Positions 4,022 through 23,264 of a DNA stretch of 54,968 nucleotides are shown here, in pieces. The position numbers and the translations under genes are program-made. The notes below the pieces were generated by a model. The model searched no databases and was not told where the DNA came from. It was given only the letters and a program-made list of their open reading frames with translations. Each line of letters starts with the position of its first letter. The stretch's first letter is position 1. Origin of the DNA: a virus; the IMG/VR virus record IMGVR_UViG_3300013005_000003, positions 1 through 54,968 of that record. One strand, written 5' to 3'.

Positions 4022-4371
4022 TATGCCAATCCGTATAGCTGATTCAGGTAAAGCGAGAAAGCGTTAGCAGCGACTTCCTGAGCATCCGTCTGTGCGTCCT
4101 GAGAGTCTGGACGCGGATTCCTCACTGGCACGGGATCAGGACGCAGGAGCAGGCGGCTGAAATACGGCTGCGGAACATCGTCGCACGAAGCGCAGACGTA
4201 GAGCTTCAGACCCACTGGGGTCGAGCCGCCGCGATAGTCCTTCTTCTCCCGAAGGTGAGTGTGCTGCACGAGGAAGCCGCAGCCATCGCATATCGCAATA
4301 GCTCTCGGATTCTTCGCGTCGAACTCGGGCCCAGTCCGATGCTTCTTTCCCCGTCCATATGCGTACTGCAT
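4021..4371 (-). CDS. Zinc-ribbon virion-associated protein
   Basis: 116 aa. Two CxxC pairs, C28/C31 (ICDGCG) and C60/C63 (VCASCDD), indicate a zinc ribbon. The text around them (AICDGCGF...LREKKDYRGG...PQPYFSR...PDPVPVRNPRP) recurs in phage structural modules beside tail accessory genes. The ATG at 4371 overlaps the stop of the preceding gene by one base and its own stop overlaps the next ATG by one base, so it is translated in step with structural genes. Function unknown. Confidence 0.6.
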   Translation of the reverse strand: MQYAYGRGKKHRTGPEFDAKNPRAIAICDGCGFLVQHTHLREKKDYRGGSTPVGLKLYVCASCDDVPQPYFSRLLLRPDPVPVRNPRPDSQDAQTDAQEVAANAFSLYLNQLYGLA

Positions 4372-7260: not shown

Positions 7261-8166
7261 TTAGGAAGCGCCCTGCGAACCCCAGCCTGCGCGGAAGTTC
7301 GAGCAGCCGAACGAGTAACGCTCAATGGCCTTCGCCTTGAGGTTGTCGGTGTCGAAGTCCGTGTAGACGTCGGTTTCCAGCTTTTCACGCTCGTAGTACT
7401 TGAAGCCGTTCGGAGCGTCGGTCAGCAAGAACCAGCCGTTCGTGTCGGTCAGGAACATGTTAACGCGATGACCCTGCGGAACCGCAGAGTTGTTGTAAAT
7501 CGCGTTAATGTCGTTGTTCGCCGTGTCGACGCGGAACTGCGACTGGAGCAGGCGGGTAGCCGTCCACTGCAGTTCAGCCGGAACGATCAGCTTCGTCGGC
7601 TTCGTCATGATGCGGAGGCCCGCAGCATCACGGAAGCGCTGAACGCCAACGATGGCGTCCTGAAGCGAGGTTTCGTTCAGGTCGGCTTGGACCGAGAAGG
7701 TGTTCGCGACCGTACCGTTGTCGATGGGGTGAGCCGTCGAGAACAGCGGCTGGCCATCACCAATCGGGAAGTTCGACGAGAAGCCGTTGTTCAGAACGGA
7801 CGCGCCGAGAACTTCCTTGGTCTGTTCCATCGACTGGCGAAGAGCCTTCGCCTGCAGCGGGAACGACGACTGATACAGGTTATCCTTGATAGCCTGACGG
7901 GTGATGATGAAGCCGATGCTGGTGTAGCGGTTCACGTAGTTCGTGACGAACCGCTGACCCATTTCACCGTAGGCGGTCGAGGCGCCTTCAGCCTTGATCT
8001 GAGCCAGACCAAGCAGCTTGACTTCGACTTCGATTTCAACGGCCTTATCGGACGTGTGCTTCTCGAAGATTTCCGACCACTGACCCGGATACATGGGATA
8101 GTCGCCAAAAACGGCGGCCAAACCGGGCCGGAGCAGGTCGCGGATTGCGGTAGTGTTAATAGCCAT
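7261..8166 (-). CDS. Major capsid protein (HK97 fold)
   Basis: 301 aa. The N-terminal MAINTTAIRDLLRPGLAAVF, then VEVKLLGLAQIKAEGASTAY, the helix RFVTNYVNRYTSIGFIITRQ, the TKEVLGASVLNNGF segment, LFSTAHP and the C-terminal YEREKLETDVYTDFDTDNLK...AIERYSFG match the Mu gpT-like branch of HK97-fold capsid proteins. The ribosome site AGGAGA eight bases before the ATG is strong. It lies downstream of scaffold and a decoration-type gene, as expected, and its 3' end carries a stable hairpin. Confidence 0.88.
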   Translation of the reverse strand: MAINTTAIRDLLRPGLAAVFGDYPMYPGQWSEIFEKHTSDKAVEIEVEVKLLGLAQIKAEGASTAYGEMGQRFVTNYVNRYTSIGFIITRQAIKDNLYQSSFPLQAKALRQSMEQTKEVLGASVLNNGFSSNFPIGDGQPLFSTAHPIDNGTVANTFSVQADLNETSLQDAIVGVQRFRDAAGLRIMTKPTKLIVPAELQWTATRLLQSQFRVDTANNDINAIYNNSAVPQGHRVNMFLTDTNGWFLLTDAPNGFKYYEREKLETDVYTDFDTDNLKAKAIERYSFGCSNFRAGWGSQGAS

Positions 8167-8190: not shown

Positions 8191-8787
8191 TCAGAGGCCA
8201 GTCACCCCACCCCGATAGAGGTGGTTGTTGATGACAACGAGCCAGTTCGCGAAGTTTCCAATGGCGTTACCCGGGGTCGGGTCCAGCTGCAGGATCTTCA
8301 GGTTCAGCGTCGAGGTTGCAGCTTCAGTCGAGTTGTCGAGCGACACGGCTGAAGTACCCGTTGCGGTAGAACCGGCGGTGTACAGGAAGTTCGCGTTCAG
8401 ACCACGATCAGCAAGGGCCAACGGGGTGCCCGCAGCGCCAGAAGCATTCGTTTCCTGAATGGTGAACACGGTGTTCGGATCGTCGATCACGAGAGCTTCA
8501 ACGACCGAACCGGTGAGAACACCGGGGTTACCCGGCCAGTAGTTCTCGAAACGGACGCGGCCAGTGCTGTCGATGAACTTGACGCCCCAGAAAACGCCAA
8601 TAGTGGTTGCACCCGCGACGCCCACGCCAAGCGTGCCATCGGAGAGAGTGGTGACGGGATCGCCACGGAAGAGTGCGGTCGCGTAAGCGTTAGCAATCTG
8701 ATACGGATTAGTCGCGCCAGTCCAAGCAGAGCCATCCAGCTTCTTGACGGGGACGAGCCCCTGAGGCGCATTGGTACCGTAAGCCAT
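8191..8787 (-). CDS. Capsid decoration/structural protein preceding the major capsid gene
   Basis: 198 aa using the ATG at 8787, which has GGAGA seven bases upstream; a longer frame to 8841 would read through the leader hairpins and is rejected. It begins MAYGTNAPQGLVPVKKLDGS, then IANAYATALFRGDPVTTLSD, and is otherwise beta-rich. Proteins with this opening are encoded immediately before the capsid gene in a number of podovirus-like phages and are virion components. First gene of the capsid operon driven by the promoter at 8933-8961. Confidence 0.6.
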   Translation of the reverse strand: MAYGTNAPQGLVPVKKLDGSAWTGATNPYQIANAYATALFRGDPVTTLSDGTLGVGVAGATTIGVFWGVKFIDSTGRVRFENYWPGNPGVLTGSVVEALVIDDPNTVFTIQETNASGAAGTPLALADRGLNANFLYTAGSTATGTSAVSLDNSTEAATSTLNLKILQLDPTPGNAIGNFANWLVVINNHLYRGGVTGL

Positions 8788-8823
8788 ACGGATTCTCCAT
8801 GCTGAAGTTGAGGGTTGGTTTCT

Positions 8824-8839
8824 GCCGGTACGTAACGGC
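8824..8839 (-). promoter_or_regulatory. Leader palindrome 3 (conserved core TACGTAAC)
   Basis: GCCGGTACGTAACGGC on the plus strand: 4-bp arms GCCG/CGGC around the core GTACGTAA. It belongs to a set of three with the core [A/G]TACGT[A/G]A and different but matched arms. It lies 37 bases upstream of the decoration-protein ATG, in the untranslated leader. May act as an operator or an RNA hairpin. Confidence 0.55.
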
Positions 8840-8851
8840 AATCGTTTTTTT

Positions 8852-8871
8852 GCTACGATACGTGACGTAGC
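8852..8871 (-). promoter_or_regulatory. Leader palindrome 2 (6-bp arms, core ATACGTGA)
   Basis: GCTACGATACGTGACGTAGC: arms GCTACG/CGTAGC around ATACGTGA. Shares its core with the palindromes at 8824-8839 and 8900-8917, while the outer arm bases differ in a paired way. Centre-to-centre distances within the set are 30 and 47 bases. Confidence 0.6.
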
Positions 8872-8899
8872 CTCGAAGTGAGCCTGCCATGCTCAGGGA

Positions 8900-8917
8900 C
8901 CACGGTACGTGACGTGG
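8900..8917 (-). promoter_or_regulatory. Leader palindrome 1 (5-bp arms, core GTACGTGA)
   Basis: CCACGGTACGTGACGTGG: arms CCACG/CGTGG around GTACGTGA. It begins about nine bases after the predicted transcription start of the capsid promoter, the position of a classical operator, and would be the first hairpin of the leader RNA. Confidence 0.6.
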
Positions 8918-8932
8918 CGTCGATGTAGATGT

Positions 8933-8961
8933 AAATTATGCTTAAATAGGACTGCTGTCAA
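8933..8961 (-). promoter_or_regulatory. Sigma-70 type promoter of the capsid operon
   Basis: Minus strand: a perfect -35 TTGACA (8961-8956), then 15 bases and CATAAT (8940-8935), or 17 bases and TAATTT as the -10. It lies just after a terminator and about 150 bases before the first capsid-operon gene, so a fresh transcript here makes sense. The TTGACA sits in the palindrome TGCTGTTGACAGCA, which could bind a regulator. Start of transcription is expected near 8926. Confidence 0.55.
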
Positions 8962-8969
8962 CAGCATAC

Positions 8970-9003
8970 AAAAAGACCCCCGCCCAGTTTCCCGAGCGGG
9001 GGT
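8970..9003 (-). terminator. Rho-independent terminator between scaffold and capsid units
   Basis: Minus strand: ACCCCCGC ... GCGGGGGT (8-bp GC-rich stem, 12-base loop, 9003-8976) followed directly by CTTTTTG. It lies 41 bases after the stop of the 159-aa gene. It separates the terminase-portal-scaffold transcript from the capsid transcript, which restarts at 8933-8961. Confidence 0.75.
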
Positions 9004-10562: not shown

Positions 10563-11021
10563 TCAGAAGTTTCCAGCAAACTTACCTGACATCACATCTT
10601 CCGGCCCGCTGATCACGGCCATCACACGGTCGTCGGGGAGCAGAGCCATCGCAACGCCGCGATAGGAAACCATCGTCGACTCGTAGCGCGGAATCAGGAT
10701 CCAATCGCCGACCTTGCACCAAGGCCCGGAACGTTCGAACTTTTCGCCCTGATAGGCTTCGGGACCAACGGCGCACACCAGCGCGGACACGGAGGAATAC
10801 TTGTCCTCGGCGCGCACGGTATCCGGCAGATACAGCGTGACTTCCGTCCCGTCTTCCTGCGTAATCGTCTTAAGCTCTTCAGGACGCACGTAAATTTTTA
10901 CGGCCACGAGGTAGCCCGCTGGCTGCATATCGAACGAACGACCCGTGATGGCCGTGAATTCTTCGTCGATCAACTCCTTAGCCAGAGCCTCTTCGTGCGG
11001 CTCGATCTTGCTCATACTCAT
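10563..11021 (-). CDS. GroES-like co-chaperonin
   Basis: 152 aa from the ATG at 11021 (its A overlaps the upstream TGA; GGGAG about ten bases before). The region PAGYLVAVKIYVRPEE...DTVRAEDKYSSVSALVCAVGP...GPWCKVGDWILIPRYEST...YRGVAMALLPDDRVMAVI follows the GroES beta-barrel pattern, with the mobile loop replaced by EDGTEVTLYLPDTVR. Phage GroES-like proteins replace or adapt the host cap of GroEL to fold the capsid protein. Position next to the scaffold fits. Confidence 0.7.
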   Translation of the reverse strand: MSMSKIEPHEEALAKELIDEEFTAITGRSFDMQPAGYLVAVKIYVRPEELKTITQEDGTEVTLYLPDTVRAEDKYSSVSALVCAVGPEAYQGEKFERSGPWCKVGDWILIPRYESTMVSYRGVAMALLPDDRVMAVISGPEDVMSGKFAGNF

Positions 11022-11302
11022 CAATACATACTCCCTTTTCTGGTATCCGGTTTTTTATCGTCGTCTGGCTGCAACATACGCTTGTACTCGTCGTTGATGA
11101 CGCTAATCGCAGCCGTGTAGGCGCGCACCAACGCATTACCCTCCAGAACCTGAAGGGCAATCTCTTCTGCCGTCAGCGCAGGGATGTGCTTCTCCCCGAA
11201 GCTCGACGGCCTAAAACGGACATTAAGACTATATTCGGTGGCGCGGTCGCGCAGTTCGCCTATGCGCTCAATCGCGCGGCGCCCGAGTTCCTCGGCTGAC
11301 AT
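11021..11302 (-). CDS. Conserved small head-region protein
   Basis: 93 aa, helical, with ELGRRAIERIGELRDRATEY, LTAEEIALQVLEGNALVRAY and ISVINDEYKRMLQPDDDKKP. The ATG at 11302 has GGAGAG upstream, and the 5' end overlaps the preceding gene by 35 bases. I do not recognise a family with a known role. Confidence 0.5.
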   Translation of the reverse strand: MSAEELGRRAIERIGELRDRATEYSLNVRFRPSSFGEKHIPALTAEEIALQVLEGNALVRAYTAAISVINDEYKRMLQPDDDKKPDTRKGSMY

Positions 11303-22799: not shown

Positions 22800-23264
22800 A
22801 TGTCGGATAGGCGTGTGATTATCCACGACCGTAGGTTCATGTGGTGGGATGGGCAGAAGTTGACGCCTGTGCGCCTGTCTGAGAAAGCGCGGGCGCACCT
22901 GTCGCAGGTGAAGGCGGTGATTGCGCGAGGGACTCCGGTGCCGGAGATTTTCCCGGCGCTGGCGGATCGCAGCAATGAGGAACTGGCGCAGCGGCTGGAC
23001 GTGGATCGAGAGACTGTCCGGTTGTGGCGCAAGGACACGGGGCTGCACCGCCGTCGTGGGCCGAGAACGCTGCCGGCGCCGGGCCAGTATGACGAGACGT
23101 TGACTCTCTCGGAACTGGGCCGGGCGTGTGGCTGGGGCTGTCTATCGAGATTTGGCGAGGCGCTGAAGAAGAACCGGCCAGAGATACACGCACGGGCTGT
23201 GGCGAATGGCCGAGCGCGGAGCATGGGCCACCTGAGGCAGATGAAGAAGGAGAAGGGGGAATGA
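22800..23264 (+). CDS. Helix-turn-helix DNA-binding protein
   Basis: 154 aa. Residues 59-82 (NEELAQRLDVDRETVRLWRK) form a helix-turn-helix. A second helical region follows (TLSELGRACGWGCLSRFGEA). The start at 22800 has GAGGGC upstream. It may be the early regulator of this phage; targets such as the GTTTCA array or the TACGTRA palindromes are possible but unproven. ATGA overlap with the next gene. Confidence 0.6.
   Translation: MSDRRVIIHDRRFMWWDGQKLTPVRLSEKARAHLSQVKAVIARGTPVPEIFPALADRSNEELAQRLDVDRETVRLWRKDTGLHRRRGPRTLPAPGQYDETLTLSELGRACGWGCLSRFGEALKKNRPEIHARAVANGRARSMGHLRQMKKEKGE

Follow-up and report, generated by a model that had tools for sequence, protein, structure and literature searches.

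Tandem hairpins with a shared loop in the capsid-operon leader of uncultured phages: a candidate RNA family

The capsid-operon leader of an uncultured virus from IMG/VR (IMGVR_UViG_3300013005_000003, positions 1-54,968, analysed over its full length and called the window below) contains an array of short hairpins that carry the same loop, UNACGUAY, on stems of differing sequence. RNA-level selection on the pairing of these hairpins with a fixed loop, as put forward in an original prediction made from the window alone, was strongly supported by the covariation of the stems among related phages. As far as sequence comparison can tell, the hairpins are almost certainly recognised by some factor, and this factor is probably an RNA-binding protein. 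We assign a probability of about 0.5 to the reading that the array is a multi-site RNA operator, through which a trans-acting factor would set the stability or the translation of the capsid mRNA.

The functional strand of the leader was the minus strand, on which the downstream genes were also encoded. In minus-strand order, the locus consisted of a terminator, a promoter, a first type A hairpin (A1), a different hairpin (type B), the type A hairpins A2 and A3, the Shine-Dalgarno sequence GGAG, and the start codon of the first operon gene (Table 1). The capsid promoter was the sole exact match to TTGACA-N17-TAATTT in the whole window, and transcription was predicted to start near 8926, approximately 7 nt after the -10 box. 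Hairpin A3, the last of its type, ended 36 nt before the start codon. The best PDB matches of the first-gene protein were phage capsid-stabilising and decoration proteins with weak E values (0.008-0.08); an all-beta fold was predicted, and weak similarity to the capsid-stabilising proteins of phages Sf11 and TW1 was detected. This predicted fold fits an operon of decoration and major capsid proteins.

Table 1. Predicted features of the capsid-operon leader and the first two operon genes in the window
Feature	Position	Strand	Remark
Intrinsic terminator of the upstream operon, 12-pair stem and U run	8976..9003	-	Before the promoter in most relatives too
Sigma-70-type promoter, TTGACA-N17-TAATTT	8933..8961 (-35 box 8961-8956)	-	Sequence match; kept in relatives with diverged spacer
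Type A hairpin 1 (A1), CGAC + GCCACG[UCACGUAC]CGUGGU	8899..8922	-	Covariance model 31.0 bits
Type B hairpin between A1 and A2, UGAGC[AUGGCAG]GCUCA	8879..8895	-	
Type A hairpin 2 (A2), CGAG + GCUACG[UCACGUAU]CGUAGC	8852..8875	-	Covariance model 26.8 bits
Type A hairpin 3 (A3), CGAU + UGCCG[UUACGUAC]CGGCA	8823..8844	-	Covariance model 30.0 bits
Shine-Dalgarno GGAG, 24 nt beyond A3	8795..8798	-	AUGGAG kept in most relatives
First operon gene, 198 aa, probable capsid decoration/stabilising protein	8191..8787 (ATG at 8787)	-	Weak PDB matches
Major capsid protein, Mu gpT-like	7261..8166	-	PF10124, E 9e-12; PHROG major head protein

Several other features were noticed in the window, all on the minus strand. 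A GC hairpin with a UUCG-type loop and no U run (GGGTGGGGC-TTCG-GCCCCACCC, 7253-7230) followed the capsid gene, and another strong GC hairpin with a UUCG-type loop and no U run (6541-6515) followed the next gene. Judged from their sequence, both look like mRNA processing or protective elements rather than terminators. A GroES-like co-chaperonin (10563-11024) was encoded within the head gene cluster, at the same place as in related phages. The virion cluster also encoded a 348-aa protein (1697-2743) with a weak Cro/YdaS-like helix-turn-helix match; few related phages had this protein.

The three palindromes of the original prediction were recovered where it had placed them, as copies at 8823-8840, 8852-8871 and 8899-8918, with the terminator (9003-8976) upstream of them, as well as the TTGACA -35 box, and their position fits the proposed control of the capsid operon by hairpins. 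The description of the unit was corrected in two respects: the RNA corresponds to the minus strand, and its stems extend slightly beyond those originally given. At the RNA level, the unit consisted of CGAN and a 5-6 bp stem with a G-C pair at its top, closing an 8-nt loop, U(C/U/A)ACGUA(C/U). The core RTACGTRA was not rare by itself in the window (3 observed versus 2.6 expected). The window was then scanned for the loop T-N-A-C-G-T-A-Y on a stem of at least 4 pairs. Within 55 kb it returned these three copies only, clustered in 85 nt; their loops were perfect, and each stem comprised 6 pairs when outer G-U pairs were counted. Ten first-order random sequences of the same length and composition yielded one such hairpin in total. 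A covariance model built from the type A unit also detected the three copies as significant and nothing else, in agreement with the claim that the window held no further full copy.

Relatives were collected by a capsid-protein search of the IMG/VR collection, which gave 80 contigs with capsid proteins 97-100% identical, and the set was enlarged by a two-loop pattern and by searches with two more divergent capsid proteins. The resulting leader set comprised 90 distinct 230-nt regions upstream of first-gene homologues. Type A hairpins were present in all 79 regions with a close first-gene homologue, and absent from all 11 regions with a distant one (identity of 43% or less). Three copies were found in 69 of the 79 leaders, two in 8, and four in one, where one of the four is probably a chance match; the remaining leader, L258, had one strict and one deviant copy. 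All of the 228 copies in the 90 regions were in the sense orientation and none was antisense. In the leader L089, on the same contig as L024, a 47-nt block with a single hairpin of each type, A and B, was duplicated in tandem, showing that growth of the array by whole units is possible. More distant capsid leaders without the UNACGUAY loop carried other promoter-proximal hairpins, such as ATAGAGC-GGACCAA-GCTCTAT in L260 (about 2160-2250) and CCGC-TCGGT-GCGG in L243 (about 4320-4360), and capsid-leader hairpins with changing loops may be a wider theme.

Pairing of the stems was evaluated with 76 distinct copies, picked by their location in the leader with no requirement for pairing and aligned by MAFFT without gaps; a few pattern matches outside leaders had been removed by eye. 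The covariation score of the six-pair helix was 0.795, compared with 0.198 (sd 0.021) for shuffled alignments and at most 0.245 for slid ones. Double changes occurred at every one of the six stem pairs, 88% of the cells were paired, and the top four column pairs by mutual information were all stem pairs. Where two copies had exactly two arm differences, these involved partner bases in 415 cases and other positions in 8, although this set had been prefiltered for the three top pairs and the 76-copy score is the cleaner test. As all of these counts refer to sequences and not to independent events, they overstate the number of independent changes. The 19 different four-pair arms counted were nearly all fully paired, and the top stem pair was G-C in 75 of the 76 copies. 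The alignments of the relatives thus bore out the predicted sign of RNA selection, arms that change together around a constant loop. The original prediction had named loss of pairing in relatives, or a lack of conservation before their capsid genes, as evidence against it, and this test did not refute it.

As the loop had been part of the search pattern, it was tested separately, using a hairpin finder blind to loop sequence on 76 leaders. UNACGUAY was by far the leading loop, accounting for 187 hairpins (TCACGTAT, 90; TCACGTAC, 48; TTACGTAC, 22; TTACGTAT, 16; TAACGTAC/T, 11), along with the rare variants TCACGTTAT, TCACGTCAC, TCACGCAT, TCACGCAC and TCACGCC. The base after ACG was U in all 76 aligned copies, rarely C elsewhere, and never a purine. 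The position before ACGU was mostly C, and U1, A7 and Y8 of the loop were conserved. CGAN directly 5' of the stem was also conserved; it had been included in the search pattern, yet its conservation was visible in the aligned leaders.

A two-fold DNA operator for a repressor or activator, the alternative offered in the original prediction, is extremely improbable in view of these data. Each site is indeed a near-perfect palindrome downstream of a promoter, but the core is asymmetric and was never inverted, and neither conserved half-sites nor free orientation, both of which were tested, was found. The arms varied freely while remaining paired, being all different within the leader in 61 of 78 leaders, and their compensatory changes were accompanied by occasional G-U pairs, 9-nt loops and 1-nt bulges. 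The helix-turn-helix protein encoded at 22800-23264 had been suggested as the regulator. A homologue was detected only in the closest of five long element-bearing relatives, whose possible incompleteness limits the inference; with the protein absent from the four other genomes, it is unlikely to be a conserved partner.

Many leaders contained, between or after the type A copies, the second hairpin with GG in its loop (type B), which in the window was TGAGC-ATGGCAG-GCTCA at 8895-8879. A paired change of its stem from GAGC/GCTC to GAGT/ACTC was observed in L370, and other stems were AAAGC/GCTTT and TTGGC/GCCAA; these units had been selected by pairing, so that the evidence of covariation is weaker than for type A. 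An H-type pseudoknot joining the GG loop of type B to the CCY that precedes its stem was rejected, as it was no better than re-dealt loops (188/2000). A CGC/GCG double change suggestive of this pseudoknot was seen in L077.

The array was found at a nearly constant distance from the promoter. Of 41 distinct promoters, 38 had the first CGAN starting 8-11 nt after the -10 hexamer; among the remaining three were contigs that end inside the leader. In 15 further divergent leaders the distance was 8-12 nt in 14 and 15 nt in one, and this last leader had an extra CGAT at about 10. Because the promoter spacers differed between relatives, the constant distance is not simply identity by descent. With transcription starting approximately 7 nt after the -10 box, as predicted, the array would start at the very 5' end of the capsid mRNA. 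Around the translation start site, a small hairpin was predicted for the window but not for every relative. In the leaders L095 and L129, the -35 box of the capsid promoter was located inside the loop of the upstream terminator hairpin, giving an overlap of terminator and promoter.

This position would also suit plain 5' hairpins that stabilise an abundant mRNA by slowing pyrophosphohydrolase and RNase E attack, with no loop-specific factor. The first hairpin begins a few nucleotides from the predicted start, and the more distant relatives have different hairpins in the same leader. We nevertheless regard plain stabilisers as very unlikely, as they leave unexplained an invariant loop and a conserved CGAN amid drifting stems. 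Hairpins at a comparable location are known from putL of phage HK022, a pair of stem-loops of about 70 nt immediately after PL (PMC9378689), and the capsid leader similarly has tandem stem-loops in nascent phage RNA directly after a promoter. If the array were a put-like RNA, the nascent hairpins would bind RNA polymerase or a Nus-type complex as soon as the promoter is cleared and render the enzyme resistant to pausing and termination through the long late gene cluster, in keeping with the promoter-proximal position and the fixed orientation. However, few convincing terminator-like sites were present downstream on the minus strand, leaving no evident need for antitermination. Moreover, HK022 put acts on RNA polymerase for early genes (PMC9378689) and has two different stem-loops, whereas the array precedes capsid genes and repeats an identical loop two or three times, in interchangeable units whose stems drift freely. 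We consider a put-like function unlikely.

The occurrence of the element was investigated beyond the capsid leaders. In element-bearing relatives of up to 56 kb, the covariance model gave strong scores at the capsid leader only. Two scans of the viral collection with different two-copy patterns gave credible matches only before decoration and capsid genes, and the other pattern matches in phages, all away from capsid leaders, appear to be due to chance. Across bacterial and archaeal genomes totalling 257 billion bases, the two-copy pattern matched 78 times, and clear model scores were obtained only for L212 and L230, short MAG contigs with the same phage leader and the start of the decoration gene; a bacterial chromosomal element was thus rejected. 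The element was absent near the capsid gene of characterised phages with capsid proteins 34-48% identical, as seen for the isolates HTVC027P, DSL-LC04, QDWS535 and Caulobacter phage RW, and near that of MW202675. The window had no match in Rfam 15 (covariance models, curated thresholds); the leader region gave weak hits only, the best of which was 22 bits against a cut-off of 50 and lay over the terminator, and none of nine divergent relatives exceeded the cut-off. Such an element was also not described in the literature searched, where subscription journals were mostly missing. We regard the element as a candidate RNA family that is well defined and has no known relative.

A multi-site RNA operator bound by a protein is the most economical explanation, and in T4 the operators of genes 43 and 32 provide precedents (PMC3014915). 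The capsid-operon mRNA would begin with two to three type A hairpins whose UNACGUAY loop stays the same while the stems are free to change as long as they pair. The loop and the CGAN 5' of the stem would form the recognition site of a trans-acting RNA-binding factor of phage or host origin, and at least two bound copies of this factor would determine how stable the decoration and capsid mRNA is or how well it is translated. The promoter resembles a host sigma-70 promoter, so that control over when or how much capsid protein is made would come in once transcription has been initiated. As the hairpins do not include the ribosome-binding site, the factor would more probably act through recruitment or 5'-end protection than by blocking the start site directly. 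The stem covariation, the fixed loop, the sense strand, the 5' position and the restriction to one operon support the operator. Against it stand a whole-leader folding energy no better than that of shuffled sequences (z -0.2), a value that is uninformative, and a predicted minimum-energy structure that pairs copies 1 and 2 together instead of forming both hairpins. The first operon protein was considered as the RNA binder and rejected, as it has a decoration-like beta fold (weak PDB matches) and no obvious RNA-binding character.

The nut boxB of lambda, which has a 5-nt loop and a boxA partner, is likewise a short hairpin of a phage whose loop is recognised while the transcript is nascent; the capsid-leader unit differs in its 8-nt loop, in CGAN in place of boxA, and in its several copies. 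In T4 and RB69, a hairpin approximately 40 nt upstream of the gene 43 start has a loop recognised by a phage protein (PMC3014915); the corresponding distance for A3 is 36 nt. The gene 43 and gene 32 operators and the capsid leader have in common a phage leader RNA structure upstream of the start codon (PMC3014915), with RNA-level selection and conserved recognition bases. The former consist of a single hairpin or pseudoknot in a replication gene, and the bound region reaches across the ribosome-binding site (PMC3014915), whereas the latter has two or three copies with a different loop before a capsid operon, and a putative protein partner.

With its self-complementary centre, ACGU, the loop could owe its conservation to loop-loop pairing rather than to protein binding, which also counts against the operator. 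In such an RNA-only arrangement, kissing ACGU loops would make the 5' end compact or dimeric and so protect the mRNA or sense a ligand, as the guanidine-II riboswitch does. At least two copies were always present, one of them slightly deviant in L258, and guanidine-II (mini-ykkC) itself has two similar ACGR-loop hairpins with C-G/G-C pairs across the loops (PMC5486947). The resemblance extends to at least two short, closely similar hairpins with near-identical ACG loops, a top G-C pair and a variable spacer (PMC5486947). In contrast to the ACGR tetraloop closed by G-C, the capsid leader has ACGU within the 8-nt UNACGUAY loop; its stems drift where those of guanidine-II are conserved, it precedes phage capsid genes rather than guanidine genes, and it gave no Rfam match. 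Furthermore, the base before ACGU, mostly C, would face the invariant A, so that the kissing helix stops short of six pairs; U1, A7 and Y8 are conserved without a pairing reason, and no expression platform for a ligand sensor was seen near the start codon. An RNA-only function is accordingly rather improbable in our estimation.

Capsid proteins are the most abundant products of infection. To our knowledge, hardly anything is known about how their level is set in uncultured dsDNA phages with host-type promoters. The present analysis reveals a well-supported structured RNA, absent from Rfam, in 79 distinct capsid leaders of uncultured phages. It is nearly as likely as not that the array of identical loops at the 5' end, together with the GG-loop hairpins, is read by a dedicated RNA-binding factor or by RNA polymerase, which would represent a new route for timing or boosting capsid synthesis. 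The compact loop consensus is directly testable, the covariance model can be used to find more such phages, and the element could become the source of a new RNA-protein pair comparable to those of MS2 or boxB.
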